This document shows positions 31,140 through 53,924 of a stretch of DNA of 64,000 nt, in pieces (position 1 is the first letter of the stretch; the number at the start of each line of letters is the position of its first letter). Below the pieces are notes generated by a model. The model had not been told where the DNA came from. It worked only from the letters and a program-made list of their open reading frames with translations, and searched no databases. This DNA comes from Actinobacteria bacterium HGW-Actinobacteria-4 (GTDB lineage Bacteria > Actinomycetota > Actinomycetes > Actinomycetales > Demequinaceae), in assembly GCA_002841315.1 (NCBI GenBank), contig PHEW01000001.1:62001-126000 (forward strand), read 5' to 3'. The position numbers and the translations under genes were made by a program.

Positions 31140-31164
31140 AACGCTGAGGTAGCTCAAAGCGTTG
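31140..31164 (-). promoter_or_regulatory. Predicted ECF promoter, CAACG-N16-CGTT (pair A)
   Basis: On the minus strand CAACG occupies 31164-31160 and CGTT 31143-31140, separated by 16 bp, ending 23 bp before the sigma start codon at 31117. The same spaced word is found before four other sigma genes in the window. Confidence 0.65.
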
Positions 31165-31309
31165 TGAGGAATCTCCAGGAACTTCCAGGTTACGGCGTGG
31201 GGCTGGCGCCACCGAGCAACCAGATCCGTGCGCACGGCACTTCAGCTCGGCGCGCGCCAGAGTGCGTGCGGCAGAGTGCGTGCGCGCTGTGCAGTCGGTC
31301 AGGAGCGGA

Positions 31310-32731
31310 TCAGGCGTCGCCCAGGTAGACCCAGGTCATGACGTCGGGCGTCGCCCAGGGCTCACCCGGGTTCTCGCGCTCGATGGTTTCCCAGTCCGCG
31401 CCTTCGATGATCAACCACACCGCACCAGAGATTGCGGGGATCGGCTGCACATAGTCGCAGTCATCACTGGTTCCGGGAGGCGAACCCGCACCCGCTCTGC
31501 CCAACAGTCGCCACAGACCCACATCGCCCGTGTCTGGCTCTTGCCAGTTGGACCCACGCGTCCAGCCCACGCTGGGGCTGGGATCACCAGCAGAGACGTA
31601 ATCCGCCAACAGCCAGGCGTTGAGCCCCAGGTACCAGGCCCTGAAGGAGTCATCCTCAACGATCGCCACTGGGTCTGCTCCCCACCACTCGGATGTGATG
31701 GGTTGGAGGCCCGGAATCGTGACGTCGTAGCTGACGGTCTCAGCGCTGGGGTGCAGCGCCGCCCGCTGGTCCGCGAGTGGCGTGCAGCTATCGATGTTTG
31801 GCGTGGGCACCACGAACGCCTGGTAGACATCCCCCTCCGGTGCTCGCAGTTCTGCGGCTCCTTCTGGCGCGGGATCCGGCGTAGCGGGGTCCTTGACAGG
31901 CACCTCAAGTCCCCACCAACTCGCCACGCCGGTGTAGTCCACCAGGAGCGGCTCGAGCGGGATCACGACGGTAAGGATAGGTTCGATGATTGACGCGCCC
32001 ACGGCCTGCGCGATCAGTACCGCCTGATACTCGCCCTCGACATCCGTGGGTAGTTCTTCGTTTCCGCACTGGCCTGGCAGCGGCGAGCCGTATCGACTCT
32101 GCATCGTCCACGTGTCACCCGCGCCGCCTCCATAGCCACCGTCCGTGAAGCCAACCGCGGCCACATGCCCATCAACGACAAGTGCCGGGACCAGAGACCA
32201 TCCGTATGGTGGCGCCGCCTGAACAGAGGACCCGTCGACTTCCCACACGAGCCCCTCGAACCCGGCCCACACTCGTCTGGGCGGGAGCACCTGATCGCTG
32301 TCGGTGGTCACCCACGCGCGCACGGCGAAGGTCGCCTTGACGTCCTCCGCCCAATCAGCATCGTGCACCGTGACTCCGGGCTCAAGGGTCCACGGATCCC
32401 CGCACTGCGGGCCTCTTCCTGCATCGAGGAGGAACGGCGCATCGACAACCGGCGCATCCCCCGCGCCGTCGATCTCGATGGTCCAACTCTTGGCCACGTC
32501 GTCGATGCTCGAGGGGCCTACCACTGCTGGCCCTCCGGGCAACGCCGCCCACACCACCACACTGAGCGTGACAGCACCAGCGACGATACCCGCGCCGCCC
32601 CACGCCTGCGCCCGTCGCCCGTAGCGCACCCGCGCCCCGAGAGTCTCACGCGTCTCCACTGACACCAAGTCCCGTGCGGCATCCCCCGACGCCGCCGCCC
32701 CGTGCTTGCTCAGTTCATCGTGAAGGTCCAT
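31310..32731 (-). CDS. Sigma-B-pair partner: single-pass membrane protein, candidate anti-sigma/sensor
   Basis: A 473-aa protein: about 40 cytoplasmic residues with RYGRRAQAW before one helix (about 45-67), then a ~400-residue exported part. Exported Cys residues occur in GPQCGDPW, GQCGNEEL, DSCTPLAD and SDDCDYVQ, suggesting disulfides. It starts at ATG 32731, 8 bp after GAGAGG and 1 bp after the sigma stop; the GTG at 32740 lies too close to that ribosome-binding site. Family not recognised. It is the second longest of the six partners, and its exported region probably holds more than one module. Confidence 0.7.
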   Translation of the reverse strand: MDLHDELSKHGAAASGDAARDLVSVETRETLGARVRYGRRAQAWGGAGIVAGAVTLSVVVWAALPGGPAVVGPSSIDDVAKSWTIEIDGAGDAPVVDAPFLLDAGRGPQCGDPWTLEPGVTVHDADWAEDVKATFAVRAWVTTDSDQVLPPRRVWAGFEGLVWEVDGSSVQAAPPYGWSLVPALVVDGHVAAVGFTDGGYGGGAGDTWTMQSRYGSPLPGQCGNEELPTDVEGEYQAVLIAQAVGASIIEPILTVVIPLEPLLVDYTGVASWWGLEVPVKDPATPDPAPEGAAELRAPEGDVYQAFVVPTPNIDSCTPLADQRAALHPSAETVSYDVTIPGLQPITSEWWGADPVAIVEDDSFRAWYLGLNAWLLADYVSAGDPSPSVGWTRGSNWQEPDTGDVGLWRLLGRAGAGSPPGTSDDCDYVQPIPAISGAVWLIIEGADWETIERENPGEPWATPDVMTWVYLGDA

Positions 32732-32732
32732 G

Positions 32733-33263
32733 TCACTCACCTCTCTCGATCACGGCGATGCGCTCCACGTCGAAGTCTTCATTGCCGATGACGGCAGCGA
32801 GCTTGTCGAGCGCGTTGGACAAGTACCGCTTCACGGTGCCGTCCGCAAGACCCATGGCGGCCGCCACAGCGGGCACCGTGAGGTCATCGAAGTAGCGAAG
32901 CACCACCGCTACCCGCTCTTGCGGGCTCAGTGTCACGAGCGCCCGCCCCATTGCGTCCTGCGCGGCCACTGCGTCAGCGGGGTCATCCCCTGCCGTCGTG
33001 GCCACCTGGCCCGGCATTGCCCTGCGCCACAGCCCTTCCCGTCGCATCGCGTCAATGTGGAGCGTGCGCATGGCGGCGCGCACGTAGCCTTCGGCGGCGC
33101 GCACGTTGGGGATCCTCCTGCGGCGCACAAACACCTTGACGATGGCGTCCTGGACTAGGTCCTCGCCAGCGTGCTGGGAGCCCGTCAGCAAGTACCCGTA
33201 GGTCGCAAGGCGGGGCGCAGCGGCATCAAGCAACTCGCCTAGCACCTCATCGAAACCGGCCAC
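32733..33263 (-). CDS. SigE-family ECF RNA polymerase sigma factor (pair B)
   Basis: A 176-aa group-4 sigma factor with region 2 (LATYGYLLTGSQHAGEDLVQ, YVRAAMRTLHIDAMRREGLW) and region 4 (LSPQERVAVVLRYFDDLTVP, helix ADGTVKRYLSNA). The frame is open to 33443, inside topA, but the GTG at 33263 has GAGAGGGGG just upstream and makes the N-terminus the same length as in the other five sigma factors, so it is preferred over ATG 33281. A CAACG-N17-CGTT element lies 22 bp upstream. Confidence 0.88.
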   Translation of the reverse strand: MAGFDEVLGELLDAAAPRLATYGYLLTGSQHAGEDLVQDAIVKVFVRRRRIPNVRAAEGYVRAAMRTLHIDAMRREGLWRRAMPGQVATTAGDDPADAVAAQDAMGRALVTLSPQERVAVVLRYFDDLTVPAVAAAMGLADGTVKRYLSNALDKLAAVIGNEDFDVERIAVIERGE

Positions 33264-33284
33264 GGGTCCCCCTCTCGACATATG

Positions 33285-33310
33285 AACGAGCGAACCACCG
33301 TGGACCGTTG
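33285..33310 (-). promoter_or_regulatory. Predicted ECF promoter, CAACG-N17-CGTT (pair B)
   Basis: On the minus strand CAACG is at 33310-33306 and CGTT at 33288-33285 with 17 bp between, inside the 52-bp gap between the topA stop and the sigma GTG. A copy of the shared element of the sigma pairs. Confidence 0.62.
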
Positions 33311-33315
33311 TAGTG

Positions 33316-36021
33316 CTACTCCTTCTTAGGCGCTGCCTTCTTCGCAGGAGCCTTCTTCGCAGCAGGCTTCTTCTTCGCCACTGGCTTCTTCTTGGCCGGA
33401 GCGCGCTTCTTCTTGACCGGCCCGCGCGCACGCTTGTCGGCAAGCAACTCCACGGCGCGTTCGTGAGTCATGTCCTCCACAGTGTCGCCACGGGGGATCG
33501 TCACGTTGGTCTCGCCGTCGGTGATGTACTCGCCAAAGCGGCCAGCCTTGATCACGATGGGCTTCTCGTTGGTGGGGTCCACTCCCAACTCCTTGAGAGG
33601 CGGTGCAGCCACCCGGCCCCGGCCACGCTTCGGCTCCGCGTAGATCGCGAGCGCCGCTGGCAGGTCGATGTCGAGCAACTGGTCCTCGGTCTCGAGCGAG
33701 CGCGAGTCGGTCCCCTTCTTGAGGTACGGGCCGTATCGACCGTTCTGGGCGGTGATCTCTTCGCCGTCCTCGGCCACACCCACCACGCGCGGCAGGCTCA
33801 TCAGGATCACTGCGTCGTCCAAGGACACGGTCTCGAGCTGCATGGACTTGAACAGCGACGCGGTCTTGGGGCGGTCCTTGGAATCCTCTGGCAACACCTC
33901 AGTGACGTACGGCCCAAAGCGACCGGCCTTCGCCACGATCATGAGCCCAGTCTCCGGGTGCAGACCCAGTTCGCGCTCGTCACCGCCCTGGTTCTTGAAG
34001 AGATCCTCGGACAGTGCAACGGTCAACTCATCAGGCGCGACGTCCTCCGGGACCGATGCTCGTTGCAGTTCGCCGTCAACCTCGCGCTCCACGTAGGGCC
34101 CATAGCGGCCCACGCGCAGGGAAATGCCTTCTCCCACCTCGAAGGTGTTGATGGCGCGCGCGTCGATATCGCCCAGGTCCTCGACCAGGTGCTTGAGGCC
34201 CTCTTCGCGCCCGTGGGTCTTGGACCCGGAGCCAAAGTAGAACTCACTCAGCCACGCGGCGCGGTCGGCCTCGCCAGCGGCGATCTTGTCGAGCCCCAGT
34301 TCCATGTCCGCGGTGAAGTCGTAGTCGATCAGCCAGTCGAAGTGCTGCTCGAGCAGCCCCACAATCGAGAACGCGATCCACGTGGGGATCAGCGCCTGCT
34401 TGTCGATCCGCACATACCCGCGCGCCACGATTAAGTCCACCGTGCTCGCGTACGTCGACGGCCGGCCAAACTTACGGTCCTCGAGCTCCTTGATCATGGA
34501 GCCCTGCGTGAACCGTGGCGGCGGCGTGGTCGCGTGGGTTACGGGCTCGAGTCCCGCGGCACTCACCGCCTGGCCCTCGGCCAATTGCGGGAGCCGCTTG
34601 TCGTCCTCGTCCTTGGCGACCGCAGCTTCGTCCTCTTCATAGCGAGACTTCTCGCGGGACTCTTCGTAGGCGGCTAGGAATCCGGGCTTCGTGATGATGG
34701 TGCCGGACGCGGAGAACTCCACCGCGTGCTTGGCGCTCGACGTCGCGCCAATACGCACGGTGGACGTGGTGCCCTCGGCATCGGCCATCTGCGACGCTAC
34801 GGTGCGCTTCCAGATCAGCTCGTACATCTTGAACTCGTCGCCGCGCAGTTCGGCACGCACGGACTCGGGAGTGCGGAACTTGTCACCCGACGGGCGAATC
34901 GCCTCGTGCGCTTCTTGCGCGTTGGTGTCCTTGGTGGCGTAGGCGCGGGGGGCCGATGCTACGGCGTCAGGGCCGTACAGTTCAGTGGCCTGGGCGCGGG
35001 CGGCCCGCACGGCCTCGCCGGACAGCGACGGCGAGTCGGTACGCATATAGGTGATGTAACCGCGCTCGTACAGGCCTTGGGCGGTGCGCATTGCGTCGCG
35101 AGCTCCAAGACGGAGCTTGCGCGACGCCTCCTGGATCAGCGTGGACGTAATAAACGGAGCCGCAGGGCGACGCTTGTACGGCTTCGAGTCCATGCCGTTG
35201 ACCACGAAGTCTGCGTGCGCGAGCCCGGCGGCCAGGGCCGCAGCCGCCCCAGCGGTCAGGTGCGTCACCTTGTCGTTGGTCAGCTGCCCGCGGTCGTCGA
35301 AGTCCTTGCCTGTGGCGACCCGCTTACCGTCCACCAAGGTGAGCTTGGCGTCAAAGGCCTTGCCAGCATCGGCGCCATCTTTGGCCTGGAACGTTGCCTG
35401 CAGGTCCCAGTACTCGGCGGACTGGAACGCCATGCGTTCGCGTTCGCGGTCCACGACCAGGCGGAGCGCGATGGACTGCACGCGGCCAGCGCTCAGTCCG
35501 GGGCCCACCTTGCGCCACAGCACGGGCGACACCTCGTAGCCGTAGAGGCGGTCGAGCACGCGGCGCGCTTCCTGGGCCTCAACCAGCTCCATGTCCACCT
35601 CGCGGGGCGACTCCATGGCGCGCAGAATGCCCTCTTTGGTGATCTCGTGGAACGCGAGCCGCTTGACGGGAACGGTGGGCTTGAGCACCTCAAGCAGGTG
35701 CCACGCGATGGCTTCTCCCTCGCGGTCCTCATCTGTTGCCAGGTAGACCTCGGTGGCGTCCTTGACCAGCCGCTTGATGTCAGCGACTACCTTCTTCTTC
35801 TCCGGGCTCACCACGTAGTACGGCGTGAAGCCGTTCTCGATGTCCACGGCGAATTTGCCCACGCTACCTTCGCGCTTGCCGGCGGGGAGCTCGCTGGGCT
35901 GCGGCAGGTCGCGGATATGTCCCACACTCGAGACCACGTCATACTCGTCGCCAAGGTAGCCACCAATGGTGCGCGACTTGGTGGGTGACTCGACGATGAC
36001 GAGCTTGCGTCCGGTGGCCAT
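33316..36021 (-). CDS. topA: DNA topoisomerase I TopA
   Basis: Type IA topoisomerase that relaxes negative supercoils. The TOPRIM domain opens with KLVIVESPTKSRTIGGYLG and contains ATDEDREGEAIAWHL; the active-site Tyr is in RGYITYMRTDSPSLS. The C-terminal region carries repeated Topo_C modules (GRFGPYVTEV, GRYGPYLKKG, GRFGEYITDG) and ends in a Lys/Ala/Pro-rich tail, as in other actinobacteria. Start MATGRKLVIVE at 36021 has AGGAAG-type sequence upstream; the open frame to 36087 is not conserved-looking. 901 aa is standard. Confidence 0.96.
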   Translation of the reverse strand: MATGRKLVIVESPTKSRTIGGYLGDEYDVVSSVGHIRDLPQPSELPAGKREGSVGKFAVDIENGFTPYYVVSPEKKKVVADIKRLVKDATEVYLATDEDREGEAIAWHLLEVLKPTVPVKRLAFHEITKEGILRAMESPREVDMELVEAQEARRVLDRLYGYEVSPVLWRKVGPGLSAGRVQSIALRLVVDRERERMAFQSAEYWDLQATFQAKDGADAGKAFDAKLTLVDGKRVATGKDFDDRGQLTNDKVTHLTAGAAAALAAGLAHADFVVNGMDSKPYKRRPAAPFITSTLIQEASRKLRLGARDAMRTAQGLYERGYITYMRTDSPSLSGEAVRAARAQATELYGPDAVASAPRAYATKDTNAQEAHEAIRPSGDKFRTPESVRAELRGDEFKMYELIWKRTVASQMADAEGTTSTVRIGATSSAKHAVEFSASGTIITKPGFLAAYEESREKSRYEEDEAAVAKDEDDKRLPQLAEGQAVSAAGLEPVTHATTPPPRFTQGSMIKELEDRKFGRPSTYASTVDLIVARGYVRIDKQALIPTWIAFSIVGLLEQHFDWLIDYDFTADMELGLDKIAAGEADRAAWLSEFYFGSGSKTHGREEGLKHLVEDLGDIDARAINTFEVGEGISLRVGRYGPYVEREVDGELQRASVPEDVAPDELTVALSEDLFKNQGGDERELGLHPETGLMIVAKAGRFGPYVTEVLPEDSKDRPKTASLFKSMQLETVSLDDAVILMSLPRVVGVAEDGEEITAQNGRYGPYLKKGTDSRSLETEDQLLDIDLPAALAIYAEPKRGRGRVAAPPLKELGVDPTNEKPIVIKAGRFGEYITDGETNVTIPRGDTVEDMTHERAVELLADKRARGPVKKKRAPAKKKPVAKKKPAAKKAPAKKAAPKKE

Positions 36022-36983: not shown

Positions 36984-36999
36984 CTCGGGCACTGCTTGG

Positions 37000-37722
37000 T
37001 CAGCGTCGCTCCAGCTCGGGATGGTCTTCGTGAGGGAGCACATCAAACAGTCGCCGGCCTCCCAGCGCCTGCGCGTACTCGGGGTTGGTGCCGTCGGGCC
37101 TCACCTCTTGGAGGACGGGACGATCGATGCCCCGCGCGGAGAGTTGGTCGATGAGGCTGAGGACCTGCCCACGCGATTGAATGGTGGGGTCCACGGTGAT
37201 GCGCACCTCGAAGTCCACGCCGGAGCGTCGCACCAGGTCCAGTGACTGCCACGCTCGCTCCCCTGATGAGTCGATGCCCGTGATCTCGCCGTAGAGGTGC
37301 GGGCTGGCCTTGACGTCGAGCCCCACCCAGTCCACGAGCGGGAGCACGCGTGCCAGTCTCGCCGGGAATGCGCCAGCAGTGTGAAGCCCCACGTTGAACC
37401 CCATCGCGCGGACCGCGTGAATCGCCGGGAGCAAGGCGGCCTGGCGGGTAGGCTCGCCGCCGCTGAACACCACGGCATCAAGTTTTCCGGTGCGCGTCTC
37501 GAGCAGCGTGATGACATCCTGCCACGCAATAGTTCCCGGAACGCGCGGGGATTGCAGCGCCGGGTTATGACAGTAGGTGCAGCGCCATGGGCAGCCCTGC
37601 AGGAACAGGGTTGCGGACAGGTGGCCCGGCCAGTCGACCATCGAGAACGGCTCAACGCCGCCGATCACGATGTCCGCGGCTGTGGGTTCAGTCAGGACAC
37701 TCGTCTCGCCCATGTCACTCAT
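37000..37722 (-). CDS. nrdG: Anaerobic ribonucleotide reductase activating enzyme NrdG (NrdG2 type)
   Basis: Radical SAM enzyme that installs the glycyl radical on NrdD. The SAM cluster motif is FLQGCPWRCTYCHNP (CxxxCxxC), followed by VVFSGGEPTRQA, the GGEP loop that binds SAM. About 240 aa makes it the longer NrdG2-like type rather than the ~155-aa enterobacterial NrdG. The ATG at 37722 is chosen; 37713 is an alternative and the frame extends to 37761. It lies 106 bp downstream of nrdD and is presumably in the same NrdR-controlled operon. Confidence 0.92.
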   Translation of the reverse strand: MSDMGETSVLTEPTAADIVIGGVEPFSMVDWPGHLSATLFLQGCPWRCTYCHNPALQSPRVPGTIAWQDVITLLETRTGKLDAVVFSGGEPTRQAALLPAIHAVRAMGFNVGLHTAGAFPARLARVLPLVDWVGLDVKASPHLYGEITGIDSSGERAWQSLDLVRRSGVDFEVRITVDPTIQSRGQVLSLIDQLSARGIDRPVLQEVRPDGTNPEYAQALGGRRLFDVLPHEDHPELERR

Positions 37723-37828
37723 GGTGGTACCGCTCAGCACCCACGCGCGACCCCTCCGCACCCACGTTGGGACAGAGGTGACCTCTGAGGCTAGAGTGCT
37801 CCATCATCGGCCACACTGGACTCACGCG

Positions 37829-39736
37829 TCACAAACTGGGTGCGGACGGTTCAAGGGGAGCGCCCGCTCCCGCACCCACACCAACTCCCACCAGCGTGGA
37901 CTCGTGGAAGTGCTGGCGCTCGGCGTGTTCGCCCTTCTTGCCGATGTTGAACGACTGCACAGGACGGTGATATCCCATGACGCGAGTCCAGACCTCGCAC
38001 TCGACCAGAGGTGCATCCGGGTGCTCAAGCGCGCACAGCGGGCAGGTGGGCTGCTCGCCGTCAAGGTAGCCGTGGTTGGGGCAGATCGAGAACGTGGGAG
38101 TGATGGTGATGTAGGGCAAGCGCGCGGTCTCGAGGGTGCGCCGCACCAGCGCCTTGCAGGCCGCCGCTGACGAAATCCGTTCGCTCATGTAGAGATGCAG
38201 CACCGTGCCGCCGGTGTACTTGGACTGCAGTTCCTCCTGGCGCGCTACTGCCTCGAACGGGTCGTCGGTGAAACCCACCGGGAGCTGGCTGGAGTTGGTG
38301 TAGTACGGGTTGGTGTCGCTGCCGGCTTGCAGGATCGCGGGGTAGCGGCGGCGGTCCTCCTTGGCGAACCTGTACGTGGTGCCCTCCGCGGGGGTGGCCT
38401 CCAGGTTGTAGAGGTGGCCGGTCGCTTCTTGGAACTCGACCATCCTGGCGCGCACGTGATCAAGCAGCGCCGACGCCATGGCGTGCCCTTCCGGCGAGGT
38501 GATGTCGTGGCGGTCGGCCGTGAAGTTGCGGATCATCTCGTTGATGCCGTTAACGCCAATCGTGGAGAAGTGGTTGCGCAGAGTCCCCAGGTAGCGCTGC
38601 GTGTAAGGGAACAGGCCGCCGTCGATGGCGTCCTGAATCACCGTACGCTTCTTCTCGAGAGTGTCGCGGGCCACCTCGAGCAGGCGGTCTAGCTCGCGGT
38701 AGAGCGCGGGCAAATCACCGCTGCCGGAGCCGTCCGTGGCCGCCACGCTCTGTGCGCCGTACAGATAGCCCAGGCGCGCCATGTTGATGGTGACCACGCC
38801 CACGGAGCCGGTCTGTTCCGCGGATCCAAACAGCCCGTTGCCGCGCTTGAGGAGTTCGCGCAGGTCGAGTTGCAGGCGGCAGCACATCGAGCGAACCATG
38901 TGCGGCTCGAGGTCTGAGCTGATGAAGTTCTGGAAGTACGGCAGTCCGTACTTGGCGGTCATCCCGAACAGCAAGTCAGCATTGGGGCTGTCCCAGTCGA
39001 AGTCCTTGGTGATGTTGTAGGTGGGAATCGGGAACGTGAAGACGCGGCCCTGGTTGTCACCGGTGGTCATGACGTCGATGTACGCACGGTTGATCATGTC
39101 CATCTCCACCTGGAGCTCACCGTAGGTGAAGTCCATCTCGCGGCCGCCCACGCTGGGGACTTGGTCACGGAGGTCCTCGGGGCACACCCAGTCAAAGGTG
39201 AGGTTGGTGAACGGGGTCTGCGTGCCCCACCGCGACGGTACGTTGAGGTTGTAGATCAGTTCCTGGATCCCCTGGCGCACCTCTTTGTAGGTGAGGTTCT
39301 CGAGGCGGATGAACGGCGCCATGTAGGTGTCAAAGCTTGAGAACGCCTGCGCGCCCGCCCACTCGTTCTGGAGGGTCCCTAGGAAGTTGACAATTTGACC
39401 TACGGCCGACGAAAAGTGCTTGGCGGGGCTGGCCTCAACCTTGCCGGGAACCCCGTTGAAGCCTTCCGCCAGGAGCGTGCGCAGGGACCATCCGGCGCAG
39501 TACCCGGAAAACATGTCAAGGTCGTGGATGTGGAGGTCGCCGGCGCGGTGCGCCTCGCCGGCCTCGGGCGCATAGACGTGGCTGAGCCAGTAGTTGGCAA
39601 TGACCTTGCCTGCAGTATTGAGGATGAGGCCGCCCAGCGAGTAGCCCTGATTTGCGTTGGCGTTGACCCGCCAGTCACGCTGGTGCAGGTATTCCTCAAC
39701 GCTGTCTTCGACGTTGATGAGTGGGCTGTCGGCCAT
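37829..39736 (-). CDS. nrdD: Anaerobic (class III) ribonucleoside-triphosphate reductase NrdD
   Basis: Oxygen-sensitive glycyl-radical enzyme making dNTPs. Key features: LHIHDLDMFSGYCAGW, MCCRLQLDLREL near the substrate site, GSVGVVTINMARLGYL, the C-terminal zinc region CPNHGYLDGEQPTCPLC, and the glycyl-radical loop TRVMGYHRPVQSFNIGKKGE. No ATP-cone is apparent at the N-terminus, and 635 aa is shorter than cone-bearing forms. ATG 39736 follows AAGGGAGA. Two NrdR boxes lie 51-97 bp upstream. Presence of nrdDG indicates capacity for DNA synthesis without oxygen. Confidence 0.95.
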   Translation of the reverse strand: MADSPLINVEDSVEEYLHQRDWRVNANANQGYSLGGLILNTAGKVIANYWLSHVYAPEAGEAHRAGDLHIHDLDMFSGYCAGWSLRTLLAEGFNGVPGKVEASPAKHFSSAVGQIVNFLGTLQNEWAGAQAFSSFDTYMAPFIRLENLTYKEVRQGIQELIYNLNVPSRWGTQTPFTNLTFDWVCPEDLRDQVPSVGGREMDFTYGELQVEMDMINRAYIDVMTTGDNQGRVFTFPIPTYNITKDFDWDSPNADLLFGMTAKYGLPYFQNFISSDLEPHMVRSMCCRLQLDLRELLKRGNGLFGSAEQTGSVGVVTINMARLGYLYGAQSVAATDGSGSGDLPALYRELDRLLEVARDTLEKKRTVIQDAIDGGLFPYTQRYLGTLRNHFSTIGVNGINEMIRNFTADRHDITSPEGHAMASALLDHVRARMVEFQEATGHLYNLEATPAEGTTYRFAKEDRRRYPAILQAGSDTNPYYTNSSQLPVGFTDDPFEAVARQEELQSKYTGGTVLHLYMSERISSAAACKALVRRTLETARLPYITITPTFSICPNHGYLDGEQPTCPLCALEHPDAPLVECEVWTRVMGYHRPVQSFNIGKKGEHAERQHFHESTLVGVGVGAGAGAPLEPSAPSL

Positions 39737-39786
39737 GATGTCTCCCTTGACGCACGGTTTCCTATTGGCGGTGTCGCGGGCCCGAA

Positions 39787-39833
39787 CCACAATATCTAGG
39801 GGATTCTGGGCATTCTGCGACTACATCTAGTAG
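39787..39833 (-). promoter_or_regulatory. Tandem NrdR boxes upstream of nrdDG
   Basis: Two 16-bp sites have cores CAATATCTAG (39790-39799) and CTACATCTAG (39821-39830). Against the published NrdR consensus core CWATATATWG they match at 9 and 8 of 10 positions. Their 31-bp centre spacing (about three helical turns) is the arrangement expected for cooperative NrdR binding. They lie just upstream of nrdD, so ATP/dATP-sensing NrdR repression of nrdDG is likely. Confidence 0.75.
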
Positions 39834-40225: not shown

Positions 40226-42541
40226 CTACTTCTTCAAGAATACCTGCGAATGACCCTGCGAGGCGGCTGCGCGGTCCGCCACACCCTCCAGGTCAGGGGC
40301 GTGCGAGCGGCGCGACGCCAACGCGACCGCCACGATCGCGATCACTGCCGCAATGGCCGCAATCCCGTACCGCAGCCACGGGTTCGCACCCTCGCCGTAG
40401 CTCAACACCACCACAGCGGGCGCGATGAGCAACGCGACCAGGTTCATCACCTTGAGTAGCGGGTTGATCGCCGGTCCGGCGGTGTCCTTGAAGGGGTCGC
40501 CGATGGTGTCCGCAATCACCGTCGCCTCATGGGCAGGCGAGTACTTGCCGCCATGGTGGCCGTCTTCCACAATCTTCTTGGCGTTGTCCCACGTTCCACC
40601 GGAATTCGCGAGGAACACTGCCATGAGCACGCCCGTGCCGATGGCGCCGGCCAGGAAGCCCGCTAGAGCGCCCACACCCAGCGCGAAGCCCACAAACACG
40701 GGCGCGGTTGCCGCCAACAGACCCGGCGTCGCAAGTTCGCGCAACGAGTCCCGGGTGCAGATGTCCACCACGCGCCCGTAGAGCGGACGCTCGGTGCCGA
40801 GCATGATGCCGGGCATCTCGCGGAACTGGCGGCGCACCTCGAACACAATCGCCCCTGCAGCGCGGGTCACGGCGTCGATCGCGAGGCCCGAGAACAGGAA
40901 CACGGTGGCTCCACCGATGATCACGCCCACCAGCGTGAGCGGGTGAATCACTTCGTAGCTGAAGTCCGGCACGGCGCCAGCCACGCCAGCGACTGCCTGC
41001 GCCACCGAGTCCGCGTAGGCCCCGAATAGCGCGCTCGCAGCGAGCACCGCCGTGGCAATCGCAATGCCCTTGGTGATGGCCTTGGTGGTGTTGCCCACGG
41101 CGTCCAGGTCGGTGAGGATCTGCGAAGCCTCCTCGTCGACTTCACCCGACATCTCGGCGATGCCCTGCGCGTTGTCGCTGACCGGACCGAACGTGTCCAT
41201 GGCCACGATGATTCCCACCGTGGTGAGCAGGCCACATCCCGCGAGCGCCACCAGGAACAGCGCGAGCGTCACAGAACCACCTGCCACAAAGAACAGGATC
41301 ACAATCGCGCCGGCGATGACAGTTGCGGTGTAGACGGCAGACTCCAGGCCCAGCCCAATCCCGGACAGCACCACCGTGGCGGCACCAGTCCGCGAAGTCT
41401 CCGCAACGCGCAGGGTGGGGCGGGATGCCGTGTCAGTGAAGTAGCCCGTGAGCCACAGGATCAGCCCCGCGAGACCAATGCCCACGAACACGGCGATCGA
41501 CGCGATGATTCGAGGGTCACCCTCGGCGTCGGCAACCCGCGCGCCCACAAACTCACCGAAGGTCGACGGCAAGTAGGCGAAGGCGGCGATGGCCGCGAGC
41601 CCGGCGCCAACGGCCGCCGAGATGTAGAAGCCACGGTTGATGGCCTTGAGCCCGGACTCGTTCTCGCGCACCTTGGTGATGTACACCGCGAGCGCCGCCG
41701 TGAGCGCGCCAATGGCCGTCACAATCAGCGGGAACACGAGGCCCTGCTCGCCAAAGGCGGCCTTGCCCAGGATCAGCGCGGCCACCAGGGTGACGGCATA
41801 GGACTCGAACAGGTCAGCGGCCATACCCGCGCAGTCACCCACGTTGTCGCCAACGTTGTCGGCAATGGTCGCGGGGTTGCGGGGATCGTCCTCAGGAATG
41901 TGGTTCTCGACCTTTCCTACCAAGTCAGCCCCAACGTCGGCTGCCTTGGTGAAGATGCCACCACCCACGCGCATGAACATCGCAAGGAGTGCAGCACCGA
42001 AGCCAAAGCCCTCGAGCACCACCGCGGCGTCACCGCGGTAGAGCAGCACCACGCTCGCGGCGCCCAGGAGCCCAAGCCCCACCACGGACATGCCCACGGC
42101 GCCGCCGGTGCGGAACGCGATGCGCGCGCCGTTGATGCGGCCGTTGGGTTCGGTCGCTGCTTGGGTTACGCGCACGTTGGCGCGCACCGCGAGCCACATG
42201 CCCATGTACCCAATCGCGGCAGAGAATCCCGCGCCCACAAGGAAGAAGATGGACCGGCCAATGCGCACGCCGCTGTCGCCCGGGAGTAGGAATAACAGCG
42301 CGAACACGATGACCGCGAAGAGCACAAGGGTGCGCATCTGCCTACTGAGATACGCGGAGGCACCTTCCTGGACGGCTTGAGCGATCTCTTGCATCTTGGG
42401 AGTGCCTTCCTTGGCACTCAGCACCTGTTGGCGCAAGACGTACGAGAAGATGAGCGAGACCGCAGCGATAGCTGCGATGACGGCCACGATGGTGAGGCTG
42501 GATGAGCCTACTTCCACCTCCGGGTAAGCGGTGAAACGCAT
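40226..42541 (-). CDS. hppA: K+-independent H+-translocating membrane pyrophosphatase HppA
   Basis: A 771-aa pump with about 16 membrane helices that couples PPi hydrolysis to proton export. The substrate site is GADLVGKVENHIPEDDPRNP followed by IADNVGDNVGDCAGMAADLF; the second acidic site is near GPVSDNAQGIAEMSG, and the third near GGTWDNAKKIVEDG. GNTTKAITKG carries Lys where potassium-dependent enzymes have Ala, the known marker of K+-independent H+-pumps. With the soluble Ppa gene at 16.5 kb the cell has both ways to use PPi. A hairpin follows the gene. Confidence 0.95.
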   Translation of the reverse strand: MRFTAYPEVEVGSSSLTIVAVIAAIAAVSLIFSYVLRQQVLSAKEGTPKMQEIAQAVQEGASAYLSRQMRTLVLFAVIVFALLFLLPGDSGVRIGRSIFFLVGAGFSAAIGYMGMWLAVRANVRVTQAATEPNGRINGARIAFRTGGAVGMSVVGLGLLGAASVVLLYRGDAAVVLEGFGFGAALLAMFMRVGGGIFTKAADVGADLVGKVENHIPEDDPRNPATIADNVGDNVGDCAGMAADLFESYAVTLVAALILGKAAFGEQGLVFPLIVTAIGALTAALAVYITKVRENESGLKAINRGFYISAAVGAGLAAIAAFAYLPSTFGEFVGARVADAEGDPRIIASIAVFVGIGLAGLILWLTGYFTDTASRPTLRVAETSRTGAATVVLSGIGLGLESAVYTATVIAGAIVILFFVAGGSVTLALFLVALAGCGLLTTVGIIVAMDTFGPVSDNAQGIAEMSGEVDEEASQILTDLDAVGNTTKAITKGIAIATAVLAASALFGAYADSVAQAVAGVAGAVPDFSYEVIHPLTLVGVIIGGATVFLFSGLAIDAVTRAAGAIVFEVRRQFREMPGIMLGTERPLYGRVVDICTRDSLRELATPGLLAATAPVFVGFALGVGALAGFLAGAIGTGVLMAVFLANSGGTWDNAKKIVEDGHHGGKYSPAHEATVIADTIGDPFKDTAGPAINPLLKVMNLVALLIAPAVVVLSYGEGANPWLRYGIAAIAAVIAIVAVALASRRSHAPDLEGVADRAAASQGHSQVFLKK

Positions 42542-43269: not shown

Positions 43270-44994
43270 ATGACAAAGCTTTCGGATGCTTTGAGGGGTG
43301 CCGCTGATCGCGCTCCCGTTGATGGCGTGAGCATTCACGCGGACGTCACTGCCCGACGGGTGTCGCGCCAGCGCGGCATGCGCGGGGCGGCCAACGGCCT
43401 CGTAGGCGTGGGCGCGGTGACGCTGCTTGCCGTGGGCATCATGGCTCCCGGCATGGGTGGAGTTGCTGACGCACCCGCCAACGCGGGCAAAGATGGCTTG
43501 CGCAATGACATGGCGACGGCCGAGGGTGCCGGGGACATGATGTTCACGGGCTACGGCATGTGCGGTGTGTACCAGAGCGACTACACCTGGGGCGAGCCAT
43601 ACGTCGAGTTGACGGCGGCAATCCCCGGAGCCGAAGGCACGGAGCTTGACGGCGGCAGCACTGTTGACGTTGTCCTCACCACCACCAAGCTCGAGGACGT
43701 TGCGCTCAATAGCGAGCCTCCCGCCATTTATGTGTTGTGGGACGGCATGATCGTGGGCCAGGTGCCGTGGGAGCAGTTCGAAGCTTCTGACTTCGCCATG
43801 GGCAACGACGTTGCCGGGGAAGTCACGGTCCCGTTGACGTTGGTGAACTGCTGGGACGGTGAGAGCCTGCCAGGCGGGAAGTACGAGGTGGTGGTGAACC
43901 AGTCGTACTTTGGTGCGCAGACCGAGCCCACCCCGGTGGACCCCGAACCGCGTCCCATCGAGCCTCAGCCAGTGGACCCCACAGATTCGCCCAGCCCCGA
44001 GGACGGCGTGGCGAGCCCTGACAAGCCCGTTGACGACACCATGTTCATTGGTGGTTCGGAGATCTACTTCTCCGTGAGCGCCAGCGCTGGCACCATTGTG
44101 GTTGCCGGGGATGTCCCCGAGGACCCATTCGGCAAGTACATCCCCAAGCAGCTCACCGCTGATGATCTGCCTGACAACTACCTCTCTCCCGAGGCAGCCA
44201 GGGAACTGTTCTTGGCGAACGTGACCAATGAGCCGTGGAACATGGCCGCAGGTACCAGCCGGTGGATCATGCGGGCGAACTCGCAGGAGCCTTACGATGA
44301 CACCTCATGGATGCGCAACTACTACGGATGCGTGTGGGATGGTTCGCAAAGCACGAGCTTCCCTGAGCGGTCCGCAGAGTTGGACTTGCTGAAGTACACG
44401 GCCTCGATTCCGTCGAGCATGTCCGTGAGCTACGGCTGGGTCGTTGACGGCAACCCGCTGATCAACGTGACGCTCCAGAACACGTCGGACTACGCCATTC
44501 CCGGCATCTACGGTCAGCCCAGCGCCGAGTTGTACTTGGTGCGCGATGGTCGCGTGGTTGCCGAGGCCTACCCGGCGAACGTTGACCGTAGCGGCAATGG
44601 TGGGTTCTGGGCTGAGCCTGCTCTTGGGGGCGGCGTCGAAGCGGCGTTGGCCAGCTTGGGTCTGCTCGAGTCCGGCAACTCCGTCTCTGGTGCGTACTTG
44701 TGGCGCGAGGTCAACGGTTGCTGGAACGAACAGAATGGTCAGTTGCCTGTAGCCGCCGGCACGTACACGGTGCTTGCTGCTCAGAGCCTCTACATCACCT
44801 CTGGCATCGAGTCCTACTACTACGGCGGTGTGTTCGACGGGGCAACCATGGAGAAGGTAGTGCCGTTTGAAGGCTCCGGATCTGACCAGGCCATGAGTGA
44901 ACCGGCCATCATGCCGGCTCCGGACTGGGGCACTTTCCAGACCACCGACCTCCAGATGTGGACATCGCTTGGAACGGTGACCATCACGAATTAG
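43270..44994 (+). CDS. Sigma-C-pair partner: membrane protein with two repeated exported modules
   Basis: A 574-aa protein, the largest partner. About 40 cytoplasmic residues (VSRQRGMRGA) precede one helix (43-62). The exported part has an internal duplication: module 1 from Cys98 to Cys194, ending CWDGESLPGGKYEVVVNQSY, and module 2 from Cys353 to Cys484, ending CWNEQNGQLPVAAGTYTV then LAAQSLY. An acidic Pro-rich linker (about 218-255) separates them. The pattern suggests Ig-like beta domains closed by a disulfide (inference). Family not recognised. A strong hairpin terminator follows. Confidence 0.72.
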   Translation: MTKLSDALRGAADRAPVDGVSIHADVTARRVSRQRGMRGAANGLVGVGAVTLLAVGIMAPGMGGVADAPANAGKDGLRNDMATAEGAGDMMFTGYGMCGVYQSDYTWGEPYVELTAAIPGAEGTELDGGSTVDVVLTTTKLEDVALNSEPPAIYVLWDGMIVGQVPWEQFEASDFAMGNDVAGEVTVPLTLVNCWDGESLPGGKYEVVVNQSYFGAQTEPTPVDPEPRPIEPQPVDPTDSPSPEDGVASPDKPVDDTMFIGGSEIYFSVSASAGTIVVAGDVPEDPFGKYIPKQLTADDLPDNYLSPEAARELFLANVTNEPWNMAAGTSRWIMRANSQEPYDDTSWMRNYYGCVWDGSQSTSFPERSAELDLLKYTASIPSSMSVSYGWVVDGNPLINVTLQNTSDYAIPGIYGQPSAELYLVRDGRVVAEAYPANVDRSGNGGFWAEPALGGGVEAALASLGLLESGNSVSGAYLWREVNGCWNEQNGQLPVAAGTYTVLAAQSLYITSGIESYYYGGVFDGATMEKVVPFEGSGSDQAMSEPAIMPAPDWGTFQTTDLQMWTSLGTVTITN

Positions 44995-45023
44995 ACTATT
45001 AGACAGGGCTTCACGGCCCGGTG

Positions 45024-45189: not shown

Positions 45190-45753
45190 ATGGCTACTTG
45201 GAACTACACCCTGGATCAGTTGGTACGCAAGCGCGGTAGCGCGCTGGTTGCCTACGGATACCTGCTGACCGGGAACTCCCGAGACGCCGAGGACCTCTTC
45301 CACGACGCCGTGGTGCGGACCTTCTCTCGCGGCAAAGGCAACGTGAGCCTGCCCGAGGCCGAATCCTACGTGCGCCGCGCCATGTTCACGGCCCACATCG
45401 ACGCGGGCCGCAAAGACAGCAACTGGCGCCGCGTCCTTCACTTAGTCAAGAGCGACGAGTCCCAGTCCTCGCCTGCAGCATCGGTTGAGTTCCGTACCGA
45501 CCTGCAAGAGGCTCTCCGCCACCTCACCCCACGCGAACGCGCATGCACCGTGCTGCGCTTCTACGACGACCTCACCGCGGTGGCGATTGGCCGCGAGTTG
45601 GGGATCTCGGAAGGCGCCGTGCGCCGCTACCTGTCAGACGCCGCTGTGAAGTTGCGCGGCCAGCTTGGATCGTTCGAGGACGACCCCACTCAAGGGGTCT
45701 CTCTCGCGGAAGTGTACGAACCCACCCTCGGAAAGAAAGCGACACTGTCATGA
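45190..45753 (+). CDS. SigE-family ECF RNA polymerase sigma factor (pair D, divergent)
   Basis: A 187-aa group-4 sigma factor with region 2 (LVAYGYLLTGNSRDAEDLFH, YVRRAMFTAHIDAGRKDSNW) and region 4 (LTPRERACTVLRFYDDLTAV). The recognition helix SEGAVRRYLSDA differs from the GTVKRYLSD form of most other pairs, and LTAVAIGRELGIS replaces the LTVPEIA-type start of the helix-turn-helix. No CAACG-N16/17-CGT element was found upstream, unlike the other five. A GAGGGA site precedes the ATG. It may answer to a different promoter set. Confidence 0.88.
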   Translation: MATWNYTLDQLVRKRGSALVAYGYLLTGNSRDAEDLFHDAVVRTFSRGKGNVSLPEAESYVRRAMFTAHIDAGRKDSNWRRVLHLVKSDESQSSPAASVEFRTDLQEALRHLTPRERACTVLRFYDDLTAVAIGRELGISEGAVRRYLSDAAVKLRGQLGSFEDDPTQGVSLAEVYEPTLGKKATLS

Positions 45754-46538
45754 GCATCAACCAGAAGATGAACAATCTGGGCGACATCGGAGCCCAAGGC
45801 TACGACCCGTCTAGCGAAGTGCTGACCCAGCTGGTGTCACGCACCCGCCGCCAGCGCGCGTTCCGCCAGGGCACCTCCGCCCTCGCGGGGTCGGTTGGCG
45901 CCGTGGCACTGGCGCTAGTCACCGTCCAGGTGGTTGCCGCCGTCGAGCAGGACCCGGCCAAGCAGGACCGCCACTTCCCCGACAACGTACCGGTGGTCGA
46001 GAAGATCATCGACAAGCCCGCACCGCCGGAGCCGGTAGACATCAAGCCGATCATCGAGAAGCTTGAGGCCGCGGCCAAAGAGCAGGCTGACCTTGAGAAG
46101 AAGGCTGCCGACGAGGCCGCCAAGAAGGCTGCTGAAGAGGCCGCTGCCAAGGCTGCTGCGGAGAAGGAAGCCAGCAAGCCTAAGGAGACCTCGAAGCCCA
46201 AGGAAACGACGGCTCCGTCAACCTGCACTGCCAAGCCGTACGACACCTATATCGATCACGCCGAGAAGTGCAAGAACGACCAACTTCACAAGTATGCCAA
46301 GCCCGGCTACATCGAGTATGACCACTGGAAGTTCGGCAAGATCACCGCGTGGACGGACGCCGCGACAGGCCTGAGCCACTGGGGCGTGTACTACGGGGGA
46401 AAACTACGGATTGCCAGCTCAGCGAGTAGCTCCTGGGCGGACAACGGTTGGTACTACCCGGAGAGTTGGAGCGGTAGCACCTGCTATGGCAAGACTGTTG
46501 AAGGCGTGAACGAGTCCTGCTACGACAACAGGCAGTAG
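45750..46538 (+). CDS. Sigma-D-pair partner: membrane protein with Lys/Ala coiled coil and Cys-rich end
   Basis: A 262-aa protein that keeps the shared layout (41 cytoplasmic residues, RTRRQRAFRQ, one helix about 44-65) but has a different exported part. After a Pro/Glu-rich tether, residues about 105-140 form a Lys/Ala/Glu coiled coil, followed by a K-E-T-S-K-P linker and a ~70-residue aromatic end domain with four Cys (STCTAKPYD, AEKCKNDQ, STCYGKT, ESCYDN). This could span or contact peptidoglycan (inference). ATG overlaps the sigma stop (ATGA). Confidence 0.72.
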   Translation: MSINQKMNNLGDIGAQGYDPSSEVLTQLVSRTRRQRAFRQGTSALAGSVGAVALALVTVQVVAAVEQDPAKQDRHFPDNVPVVEKIIDKPAPPEPVDIKPIIEKLEAAAKEQADLEKKAADEAAKKAAEEAAAKAAAEKEASKPKETSKPKETTAPSTCTAKPYDTYIDHAEKCKNDQLHKYAKPGYIEYDHWKFGKITAWTDAATGLSHWGVYYGGKLRIASSASSSWADNGWYYPESWSGSTCYGKTVEGVNESCYDNRQ

Positions 46539-50751: not shown

Positions 50752-50771
50752 GAGCCCGGCAGGCTGAGTTC

Positions 50772-51699: not shown

Positions 51700-51738
51700 C
51701 AAGCCCATAACAGGGCAGAGTAAGGACCAGGGGGCCGG

Positions 51739-52287
51739 ATGAGCGAGTGGCGCGAGTTGATCGACGAGGTTGCGCGCACCCGCCACGGCTCGCTCGTGGG
51801 ATACGGGGTACTTCTCACGGCTTCGCGCCCCGCCGCCGAAGACCTCGTCCAAGACGCCATGGTCAAGGTGTTCTCCCGCGTGCGCACGGTCCCCAACGCC
51901 GCCGCCGCAGACCAGTACATCCGCCGCGCGATGCTCACGATCTTCTTGGACCAGACCCGCCGGAACTCGAACTGGCGGCGCCTGCGCCCGGTCATCGCTA
52001 CGGCCGATGCCGTGGCCGGGCATGCCGACGCCGTCGCCAACGCGCAAGACGTGCGGGAGGCACTTGCGGCGCTGAGTCCCCGCGAACGCGCATGCGTGGT
52101 GTTGCGGCATTTTGACGATCTGACCGTGCCGCAGATCGCGGAGCGCACCGGGCTCGCTGCGGGGACCGTGAAGCGCTACTTGAGTGATGGCATGAAGAAG
52201 ATGGGCGCGGAGCTCGCGCCCGAGGAGCACGAAGAACACCTCGAGCACATCCAGGTGTCTGTGGTGGAAGTCAGGAGTAGGTCATGA
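51739..52287 (+). CDS. SigE-family ECF RNA polymerase sigma factor (pair E)
   Basis: A 182-aa group-4 sigma factor. Region 2: LVGYGVLLTASRPAAEDLVQ and YIRRAMLTIFLDQTRRNSNW; region 4: LSPRERACVVLRHFDDLTVP with recognition helix AAGTVKRYLSDG. It starts after an AGGGGG site. The partner ATG overlaps the stop by 4 bp. A CAACG-N16-CGTT element precedes it. Confidence 0.9.
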   Translation: MSEWRELIDEVARTRHGSLVGYGVLLTASRPAAEDLVQDAMVKVFSRVRTVPNAAAADQYIRRAMLTIFLDQTRRNSNWRRLRPVIATADAVAGHADAVANAQDVREALAALSPRERACVVLRHFDDLTVPQIAERTGLAAGTVKRYLSDGMKKMGAELAPEEHEEHLEHIQVSVVEVRSRS

Positions 52288-53429
52288 GAGATCTCGGGAT
52301 GGAACTGCGCGGGCTCGCAGCGGCGGAGAGTGACACGCCCGTGTTCGCGAGCAAGGTAGCCGATGCTGTCGCACGGCGGGCGGGGAAGCGCCGGCTGGTC
52401 AAGAGGTCGGCAGTCGGCGCCGGGTCCGCGCTCGCGGTAGGAAGTCTGGCCGTCGGCGCAGTGATGCAGGCGGCACACTTTGACTTCGCGCCTTTCAGTG
52501 GCGTCGAAGCGACGGGCACCGCCACGCCATCGCCCGAGACGTACCTGGCGGTCGCGTATGAATGGGAAGCGGTCGAGCAGGCATTCCGGGACGCAGACCT
52601 GATGCCCGGCTGCGGCGAACCCGCAGCCTTCGAGCCCCGGACGGAGCACGGTCTCACCGTCACTTTGGAACTCGCGCCTCCAGGGATCTCAGCCGACTAC
52701 CACACGTTCAAGGTGGGCTTCCACAACGCCAGCGACGATGAACTCACCTTCATCGCTAACACTCCTGCCATCGTGCTGGTGCAGGGCGGCAGGGTGGCCT
52801 CCGATCCCAATTTCTTCCAGGGACCGACGAAATCCATCAACACCGACCCGGAAAGGCCGACCGGAGGCAACTCAAACGTCCTCTTCGAGAACGGCTTCAC
52901 CTGCGCAGGCATCAAGGCATGGGACGACCACTGGAAGCTATGGCCCGGCGAGGGAGCGAGCGTGGAGGACAGGAACCACTGGGAAACGGTAGCGAATCAG
53001 ATCAGTAACGGACCACTCAGTCCCGGCGAGTACACGGCCTACGCGTGGAGCCCCGTGGTGTTCGGCGATCAGGCGGGCATTGCTCGCGTGTGGCGTGAGG
53101 ACGGCTACTACTACCCATATGACATCGCCAATCCCGCGTACCCGTCGAGTCCCCTCTATGGTGATGAGTCGATGTTGCAGTACTGCTACTCGGAGGTTGA
53201 GGATCCCTCTACTGGCGAGACAACCCGATGGGATGGAGTGCTGCCAGACGACCCCAATGGGTTCTCGTGGGCCATCGAGGGTGTGGAAGGCGAGGTCGTC
53301 CATTTCGGTTGCGAAGTCCCGCCGGAGATCCTCGCTGACAAACTCCGCCGCCTGGTCCCGGAGAGCTACATCAACGACTACGAGATGACCTACATCATCT
53401 CCGAACCCATCACGTTCACCGTCGAGTAA
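52284..53429 (+). CDS. Sigma-E-pair partner: single-pass membrane protein, candidate anti-sigma/sensor
   Basis: A 381-aa protein: about 40 cytoplasmic residues ending RRAGKRRLVKRS, one helix (about 43-62), then an exported domain. It contains LMPGCGEPAAFEP (Cys110), a beta-rich stretch with AIVLVQGGRVAS, Cys in NGFTCAGIKAW, LSPGEYTAYAW, and a C-terminal YIISEPITFTVE. Partner F shares the PGCGE motif, a dG-x-V strand, the L-P/S-x-G-x-Y turn and a closing GEP-x-x-VTL-like end, so the two are homologous. AGGAG is 6 bp before ATG. No known domain recognised. Confidence 0.72.
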   Translation: MRDLGMELRGLAAAESDTPVFASKVADAVARRAGKRRLVKRSAVGAGSALAVGSLAVGAVMQAAHFDFAPFSGVEATGTATPSPETYLAVAYEWEAVEQAFRDADLMPGCGEPAAFEPRTEHGLTVTLELAPPGISADYHTFKVGFHNASDDELTFIANTPAIVLVQGGRVASDPNFFQGPTKSINTDPERPTGGNSNVLFENGFTCAGIKAWDDHWKLWPGEGASVEDRNHWETVANQISNGPLSPGEYTAYAWSPVVFGDQAGIARVWREDGYYYPYDIANPAYPSSPLYGDESMLQYCYSEVEDPSTGETTRWDGVLPDDPNGFSWAIEGVEGEVVHFGCEVPPEILADKLRRLVPESYINDYEMTYIISEPITFTVE

Positions 53430-53496
53430 GCACATTCGCACGGGCGCGAGGCTTGCCGGGCCCAAGCACTCGCCTCACGCCCCTAGCGAAAACCGC

Positions 53497-53525
53497 TTGC
53501 GCGTCCGTTTTGTCCGTTTTACCCT
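53497..53525 (+). promoter_or_regulatory. Predicted leaderless promoter of the small membrane protein gene
   Basis: TTGCGC (53497-53502), a 17-bp spacer and TACCCT (53520-53525). The GTG start at 53532 is 7 nt after the -10 hexamer, so transcription should begin at the start codon. The spacer is a 9-bp direct repeat (gtccgtttt twice, 53503-53520). Confidence 0.5.
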
Positions 53526-53531
53526 TATCTG

Positions 53532-53924
53532 GTGATACTCAAGCATCCACTACTCCTGGTAGCGGCCGGCATGGCCATGGCCTGCGGCGTCCTGGCCGGA
53601 TTCGCCTCCGCACCAATGGGCGGTCCCCCTGCCCCAGAAGGTGTGGCGGAGGCCCGCGGCAACCCGCACGTCCCAGACCCCGCCAGTAACCACGAACTCG
53701 ATGCCGCATTCGTGGCCAACGTTCCTGTTGACCCGGATGCTGCGGGCGTCGAGCTCGACAACGCAACCGCCGCGGGCGTCGGCCCCGAAAGCACCGCTGA
53801 CGTCGGTCTGGCTGTGCTCATCGGGATCATGGCGCTCATCTCCTTTGCGATCATCGCGATGGCCAATCCCGCTCGCGGCCACAGTAGAGCCCCGCCACAA
53901 CCGAACCCGCGTACCTTTCCGTAG
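53532..53924 (+). CDS. Small two-helix membrane protein of unknown function
   Basis: A 130-aa protein with an N-terminal helix (about 5-26), an acidic exported loop rich in Pro, Ala and Asp (PHVPDPASNHELDAAFVANV), a second helix (about 90-110) and a basic Pro-rich tail. No known domain. It has no ribosome-binding site but sits exactly one promoter spacing downstream of a -10-like hexamer, consistent with leaderless translation. It lies between sigma pairs E and F and its 3' end contains the pair F promoter-like element. Confidence 0.6.
   Translation: MILKHPLLLVAAGMAMACGVLAGFASAPMGGPPAPEGVAEARGNPHVPDPASNHELDAAFVANVPVDPDAAGVELDNATAAGVGPESTADVGLAVLIGIMALISFAIIAMANPARGHSRAPPQPNPRTFP
53898..53923 (+). 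promoter_or_regulatory. Predicted ECF promoter, CAACC-N17-CGTA (pair F)
   Basis: CAACC at 53898-53902 and CGTA at 53920-53923 with a 17-bp spacer, 32 bp before the sigma ATG. It differs from the other copies in the fifth base of the upstream box and the last base of the downstream box. Confidence 0.55.

Follow-up and report, generated by a model that had tools for sequence, protein, structure and literature searches.

Promoter words before a family of ECF sigma operons in a Demequina genome and the sigma factors that may read them

When one small genome encodes many close copies of the same type of sigma factor, which copy reads which promoter? This question is raised by a 64,000-nucleotide stretch of Actinobacteria bacterium HGW-Actinobacteria-4 (contig PHEW01000001.1, positions 62,001 to 126,000 of the forward strand), hereafter the window, which belongs to a Demequina genome of 2.52 Mb in 17 contigs, with Demequina accounting for its 15 best matches in a named collection. 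Between 29.6 and 55.5 kb, the window holds six operons, each consisting of a gene for an extracytoplasmic function (ECF) sigma factor, termed S1 to S6, followed, mostly with a 4-nucleotide overlap, by the gene for a protein with one transmembrane (TM) segment. That ECF operons carry AAC/CGT promoters and are autoregulated is textbook knowledge. The sigma factors belong to a clade with 13 members scoring above 160 bits in this genome, six inside the window and seven outside, and all 78 pairs are recognisably related, with identities of 30-54% (BLAST E up to 0.01). An earlier note on this DNA had described a shared word, CAAC(G/C)-N16/17-CGT(C/T/A), before five of the six operons and had proposed autoregulation combined with likely cross-recognition, by which many sensors would feed one promoter class. 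We find that the five words are almost certainly real ECF promoters. With a probability of about 0.83, each would be recognised by the product of the sigma gene that follows it, its letters changing together with the protein, with S3 in charge of a regulon and with paralogues that would be mostly insulated from each other.

Promoter words before the sigma genes

All five words are located at the positions and on the strands given in the earlier note, and the sixth operon, for which no word had been reported, carries a variant. The sites are listed with their scores in a held-out model, for whose training this genome was set aside, with a generic AAC/CGT word as the seed, and whose shuffled 99th percentile is 10.6 bits.

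31140 to 31164, minus strand: S1 promoter, CAACG-N16-CGTT, 23.1 bits
33285 to 33310, minus strand: S2 promoter, CAACG-N17-CGTT, just past a topA-like gene, 14.5 bits
42643 to 42667, plus strand: S3 promoter, CAACG-N16-CGTC, 25.0 bits
45116 to 45140, plus strand: S4 variant promoter, CATGG-N16-CGTA, 14.7 bits
51675 to 51699, plus strand: S5 promoter, CAACG-N16-CGTT, 22.1 bits
53898 to 53923, plus strand: S6 promoter, CAACC-N17-CGTA, 10.2 bits, weak

The five words end 22 bp (S1), 21 bp (S2), 45 bp (S3), 39 bp (S5) and 32 bp (S6; 53923 to 53956) before the probable start codons of the sigma genes. The helix G(T/A)VKRYLS, described as common to the same five sigma factors, is found in four, with S1 at 31.1 kb containing GTVKRYLH instead. 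In the region 33285-33316, the stop codon of the topA-like gene is only a few bases away from the S2 promoter.

The raw frequency of the word in the window says little, and its placement upstream of sigma genes is the informative measure. With a spacer of 16 nucleotides (N16), 11 matches are found in the window compared to 4.1 expected, a number reached in none of 100 shuffles; with a spacer of 17 (N17), there are four compared to 3.7 expected, and 10 of these 15 matches are situated away from sigma genes. A scan of the entire genome, which the earlier note had called for, returns 444 matches in 2.52 Mb on two strands, compared to 343 for a control pattern read backwards, and the word has a density of 0.013 per 150 bp and strand. 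The presence of the strict word before five of the six window operons corresponds to a p of about 2e-9, although these very sites were the source of the word. Since it was picked from the window, the seven paralogues outside constitute a clean test, in which the strict word precedes four (p about 1e-6). Within 150 bp upstream, the strict word is present in nine of the 13 own paralogues.

For a broader view of conservation, we collected 222 matches to the sigma set, which reduce to 192 distinct proteins, of which 181 were counted (at least 100 bits and at least 100 bp of upstream sequence). Paralogues were taken, among the matches listed, from six of 24 Demequina relatives, and one locus each from the other relatives. 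The strict word is found before 53 of 70 paralogues, among the matches listed, in whole genomes of other Demequina (0.6 expected from shuffles), before 16 of 17 relatives on named Demequina contigs (0.1 expected) and before 68 of 80 relatives on contigs of other genera (0.65 expected). It is thus far commoner before sigma relatives than in shuffled upstream regions, a comparison that had also been suggested. Among more distant ECF sigma factors (40-100 bits), it occurs in one of four in this genome and in one of five in other Demequina. Matches on the reverse strand (1 of 13 in the own genome, 10 of 70 in whole genomes, 6 of 17 on named contigs and 3 of 80 in other genera) likely reflect the fact that CAACG...CGTTG is its own reverse complement. 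In a two-block model, a site above the shuffled 99th percentile precedes 173 of the 181 sigma genes, from Demequina, Cellulomonas and their kin, and 12 of the 13 in the own genome; in the held-out model, 11 of the 13 own sites exceed its threshold.

The closest relatives of S4 (L136 and L137) carry CAAGG-N16-CGTA, within CCCCAAGG...CCGTA, at a similar distance from the gene, and the region upstream of S4 aligns with both without a gap as CCCCATGG-N-CCGTATTA. Under the model trained without this genome, the variant site has a p of about 0.002. Based on this alignment, all six window operons have a recognisable promoter, with that of S4 appearing to be rewired. A sister group from Promicromonospora (L083, L089, L093 and L111) has CATCG instead of CAACG at -35, which may be another rewiring event.

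Promoter letters and the adjacent sigma factor

When -35 word, -10 word and spacer are taken together, 10 combinations occur in the 13 operons of this genome. An identical combination, CAACG/CGTT/16, is found in three of them, S1, S5 and p19 (on contig C3), from which S2 differs by its spacer alone; the sites of p17 and p08 are among the weaker ones within this count. Some orthologue groups keep their -10 letters, with CGTC in 32 of 34 members of the S3 group, CGTT in 13 of 15 of the p19 group, CGTA in all three of the S4 group and CGTT in all three of the S1 group, and 30 of 34 S3-like genes carry the combination of CAACG, CGTC and N16. The proposal that many sensors feed one promoter class is, in the form given, not supported in view of this diversity of letters and spacers, which tracks residues of the adjacent sigma factor. 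We therefore predict mostly insulated channels in this genome, with cross-talk being plausible among S1, S5, p19 and perhaps S2.

Covariation was analysed in the 175 of 181 cases with a site above 9 bits, narrowed to a set of 126 (identity below 75%) or of 162 (below 90%). In the set of 126, base 4 of the -35 element covaries most with columns 129, 131, 130 and 125 of the sigma alignment and base 3 of the -10 element with columns 51, 73, 84 and 48, the mean corrected mutual information of the latter being 0.099 over sigma2 compared to 0.028 over sigma4. K145 is accompanied by C at base 3 of the -35 element in 121 of 121 cases and R or S at this position by G in three of five; bases 4 and 6 covary with T129. 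In pairs stratified by identity, the top column is K145 for base 3 and T129 for base 6 of the -35 element, and of the whole-domain averages only that of the -10 element significantly favours its domain, sigma2 (p 2e-4). On the tree, both changes of base 3 of the -35 element coincide with changes of K145 (in the S4 group and in the Sanguibacter sequence L101), and for the -10 base the five best-ranking columns belong without exception to sigma2. These data suggest that the -35 letters change mainly with domain 4 (T129, K145 and D150) and the -10 letter with domain 2 of the adjacent sigma factor. Such covariation supports autoregulation and speaks against one pooled class, and it is a pattern that neither a chance word nor a single outside sigma factor would be expected to predict. 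As a prediction, the autoregulation proposed in the earlier note is thus well supported, by covariation as well as by conservation across genera.

Predicted targets of S3 and organisation of the operons

A stricter word of the S3 type, CCAACGNTT-N13-CGTC, has 47 matches in 25 Demequina genomes compared to two for the backward pattern, and no match in this genome itself. The genes behind these words encode 21 S3-like sigma factors, 21 predicted secreted lipoproteins (as judged by eye from a signal peptide and a lipobox) and five other proteins, with six of the 47 sites assigned by position, five to sigma factors and one to a serpin (including L264 and L277). The lipoproteins comprise 13 DUF4349 proteins, three members each of two unnamed families of short proteins from other Demequina (L247, L266 and L268; L250, L256 and L279) and two serpins.

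DUF4349 genes were found in 23 of the 25 Demequina genomes (23 genes), with three more in further Demequina. All 26 are preceded by a promoter of at least 16.8 bits, which always contains CGTC and always ends 8 nucleotides before the ATG, thus predicting a leaderless mRNA, while 71 downstream windows of the same length reach at most 10.85 bits. Outside Demequina, there were 36 DUF4349 matches, 24 of them with loci, of which 23 were examined (L335 was skipped); as negative control, none of these 23 genes from other families has a site and none exceeds 10.7 bits. Serpin genes, 18 in 17 of 31 Demequina genomes, have a promoter site in 13 cases; the five without it comprise the second copy of a tandem pair in this genome plus four more. 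The own serpin (PF00079, E 1.4e-81) is preceded by CAACG-N17-CGTT at C1:222294 and the own DUF4349 gene by CAACC-N16-CGTC. The two tandem serpin genes (L228 and L245; G000:C1:222376 and 223654) are 74% identical over their first 135 residues, and the ECF-type promoter is found only before the first.

A scan of the own genome for class-G sites gave 25 matches compared to 10 for the backward control, 15 inside genes and 10 intergenic, with five of the latter belonging to sigma operons; genes around these sites and around the window operons were called with a simple script. The nearly palindromic site L218 (G000:C12:21856-21881; ACAACG...CGTTGT, 23.9 bits) is promoter-like in both directions and lies between a gene for a predicted secreted protein and an ftsY-like gene, both named by eye. 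S3-like sigma factors are present in at least 23 of the 25 Demequina genomes (21 by the S3-type word, plus this genome and G012). Because they are near-universal in the genus and share the same letters, S3 is the best candidate for reading the CGTC target promoters.

The sigma genes of the window and their partners are arranged as follows.

29649 to 30569, minus strand: S1 partner, predicted anti-sigma/sensor with a short cytoplasmic end and one TM segment near residue 47
30566 to 31117, minus strand: S1, ECF sigma factor, 183 amino acids
31310 to 32740, minus strand: S2 partner, predicted anti-sigma/sensor, start ambiguous
32733 to 33263, minus strand: S2, ECF sigma factor, 176 amino acids from an inferred start (likely GTG at 33263)
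42713 to 43267, plus strand: S3, ECF sigma factor belonging to the core set of the genus, predicted to control the genes for DUF4349 lipoproteins and serpins
43270 to 44994, plus strand: S3 partner, with a pair of short helices in the cytoplasm, a single TM segment and Ig-like beta domains outside, all predicted
45190 to 45753, plus strand: S4, ECF sigma factor; R replaces the K that most relatives have at 145, within the helix GAVRRYLS predicted to read the -35 element
45750 to 46538, plus strand: S4 partner, predicted anti-sigma/sensor, TM segment near residue 47
51739 to 52287, plus strand: S5, ECF sigma factor
52284 to 53429, plus strand: S5 partner, predicted anti-sigma/sensor, TM segment near residue 43
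53956 to 54522, plus strand: S6, ECF sigma factor, S129 replacing T129
54519 to 55514, plus strand: S6 partner, predicted anti-sigma/sensor, TM segment near residue 41

The sigma factors contain only the domains sigma2 and sigma4 connected by a short linker and match an ECF model, in line with the definition of ECF (group IV) proteins. All six match TIGR02937 (E up to 1e-3; S3 with 67.6 against a cut-off of 42.9), and S1, S2, S3 and S6 exceed the cut-off of PF04542, with S5 below it (21.9 against 24) and S4 not among the matches listed. The cut-off of 141.55 bits of SigE-fam_strep (TIGR02983) is not reached by S3, which scores 119.9, and the best E among the six is 5.6e-36. Several relatives likewise cluster these sigma genes within about 13-31 kb. 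Between the operons of the window lie genes that we take to encode an anaerobic ribonucleotide reductase and its activase (37000-39790) and, divergent from S3, presumably a membrane proton pyrophosphatase-like protein (40226-42541).

In 157 of the 181 cases, the sigma gene is followed by an open reading frame of at least 100 amino acids with a TM segment starting at or before residue 110 (median about 44), the median overlap being 4 nucleotides. The cytoplasmic end of the partners, of about 40 residues, shows loosely patterned leucines and, ahead of the membrane, a stretch rich in arginine. It is far shorter than the cytoplasmic domain of about 100 amino acids, often with the motif Hx3Cx2C, that defines class I anti-sigma factors, for which an average of 101 residues is given in the portion of PMC7406223 concerned with them. 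None of the six window partners lies above the cut-off of a Pfam family, and no family of class I anti-sigma domains (ASDI, zinc type) is among their matches listed at E up to 1. Weak matches below the cut-off were obtained for the S6 partner with the Rv2743c family (residues 22-72, 18.6 bits against 27.7) and for the S1 partner with Big_11 (13.8 against 25). A structural model of the S3 partner places helices at residues 4-14 and 24-39 of the cytoplasmic part, at low confidence (block predicted local distance difference test values of about 36-51), and predicts Ig-like beta domains for the outer part. Only one of 78 pairs of partner outside domains is recognisably related (BLAST E up to 0.01), with five of the 13 own partner sequences being cut by the end of the locus in comparisons of TM segments and outside domains. 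The partners are putative anti-sigma factors.

Competing explanations and relation to known systems

In the explanation that we favour, the words would represent the two elements, -35 and -10, of ECF promoters, and the likely reader of each would be the product of the sigma gene that it precedes. The short cytoplasmic end of the partner would hold its sigma factor until a signal from outside frees it to activate its own operon together with a small number of targets, and the core member S3 would, via CAACG...CGTC, drive leaderless mRNAs of secreted lipoproteins, namely the DUF4349 protein and the serpin. The promoter word would thus likely switch on a programme for the protection of the cell envelope. 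Paralogues would be largely insulated by private letters at the final positions of the -35 element and the fourth base of the -10 element, together with the spacer, and cross-talk would be confined to the few operons with all letters in common. As a more far-reaching proposal, which we put forward tentatively and at somewhat less than even odds, the operons may constitute a natural orthogonal sigma array, in which some dozen copies of one ECF type each acquired a new extracellular sensor and drifted to private letters that match their own contact residues. The core copy, S3, would meanwhile be in charge of a regulon for envelope protection throughout the genus, consisting of leaderless mRNAs for lipoproteins (DUF4349 protein and serpin protease inhibitor).

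Several observations weigh against the favoured explanation. In the held-out model, S6 (10.2 bits) and p17 (8.2 bits) miss the threshold set by the shuffled 99th percentile, and eight of the 181 sigma genes show no site in the two-block model. The S2 group is mixed at -35, with three CAACG and four CAACC (CGTT in six of seven), the S6 group is mixed at -10, with two CGTA and two CGTG, and the p10 and p11 groups carry several letter variants. The covariation is confounded by descent, which was not fully removed: in whole-domain averages of identity-stratified pairs, the -35 element does not significantly favour sigma4 (p 0.16-0.85), its position 5 covaries more with sigma2, and T129 and D150 are the only columns whose tree-based signal would withstand a correction over alignment columns. 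T129 is also no strict code, as CAACC is found with 17 of 80 sigma factors containing it. Finally, the own serpin site has CGTT and N17 and the own DUF4349 site CAACC, so that the link to S3 in this genome rests on its relatives.

The core CAAC...CGT common to all sites, the identity of letters and spacer in S1, S5 and p19, with S2 off by its spacer, and the mixed letters inside some orthologue groups could be explained if paralogous sigma factors cross-recognised one pooled promoter class and many sensors fed a shared output, as might be anticipated from the cross-talk of ECF sigma factors of B. subtilis described in a section of PMC3817407. We consider this unlikely, although it is the most serious of the alternatives, in light of the 10 combinations in 13 operons, which are kept in the groups of S1, S3, S4 and p19, and of the covariation with residues of the adjacent sigma factor, where S4 and its relatives have changed -35 element and K145 together. 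The analogous SigI proteins are also mostly specific, as far as covered in the relevant part of PMC6056542. An improbable variant holds that a single sigma factor, either encoded outside the operons or a core member such as S3, transcribes all of them and that the words are not autoregulatory. The broad occurrence of S3-like proteins in the genus (at least 23 of 25 genomes), their most canonical letters and the presence of S3-type words before non-sigma genes would fit such a reader, which nevertheless does not explain why the letters of variant promoters follow residues of the neighbouring sigma factor and which leaves S4-type promoters with CAAGG or CATGG without a reader. That the five words are non-functional chance matches in GC-rich DNA is very hard to believe: the N17 word is no commoner in the window than expected, 10 of 15 window matches lie elsewhere and 15 of 25 class-G matches in the genome are inside genes, but chance would not account for the placement before held-out paralogues, 173 of 181 relatives and 26 of 26 DUF4349 genes.

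The favoured reading of private, autoregulated promoters has parallels in known systems. ECF sigma factors are classically defined by AAC/CGT promoters and autoregulation, with a later estimate that about 55% autoregulate (sections of PMC8103513; also PMC3817407). In the general operons of ECF and membrane anti-sigma factors outlined in these sections, the promoter, with a spacer of 16-17 bp, likewise precedes the ECF sigma gene, and the gene for a partner with one TM segment mostly overlaps it; the present case differs by 13 copies of one clade in a genome of 2.5 Mb with largely unrelated outside domains, and by a cytoplasmic part of the partner of only about 40 amino acids. A set of sigma paralogues with their own anti-sigma genes and promoters combining a shared core with a specificity region is also found in SigI/RsgI of Clostridium thermocellum, a likeness of function only, which we draw from part of PMC6056542; there, paralogues of 36-45% identity are mostly specific for their own promoters. 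SigI promoters differ in consisting of an A-tract and CGAA and in serving cellulosome targets, compared to ECF sigma factors with CAAC/CGT and predicted lipoprotein and serpin targets here. The class II anti-sigma factor CnrY, of a type in which two helices wrap the sigma factor and which holds CnrH (excerpted from PMC7406223), resembles the S3 partner in its very short cytoplasmic end with two predicted helices before the membrane, a likeness by description and not by sequence, with the helices in a low-confidence part of the model. Regulated actinobacterial serpins are known from Bifidobacterium, where, according to a portion of PMC8012564, control is exerted by a two-component system in B. 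breve, in which the serpin is protease-inducible, and by carbohydrates in B. longum, in contrast to the ECF promoter predicted here. In the open-licence literature, we found no account of this Demequina array, of its sigma-promoter letter code or of a connection between ECF sigma factors and DUF4349 or serpin genes, and this ECF group may already be numbered, with a published motif.

How closely related sigma factors keep clear of cross-talk within one small genome is still an open question, which the duplicated sigma factors, sensors and promoters, residing here side by side, render directly testable. T129, K145 and residues of domain 2 near 51, 69 and 73 are predicted to set named promoter bases. 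If true, the predicted S3 regulon would provide a regulatory context for DUF4349 lipoproteins and a route for the control of bacterial serpins beyond the two-component and carbohydrate control of Bifidobacterium.

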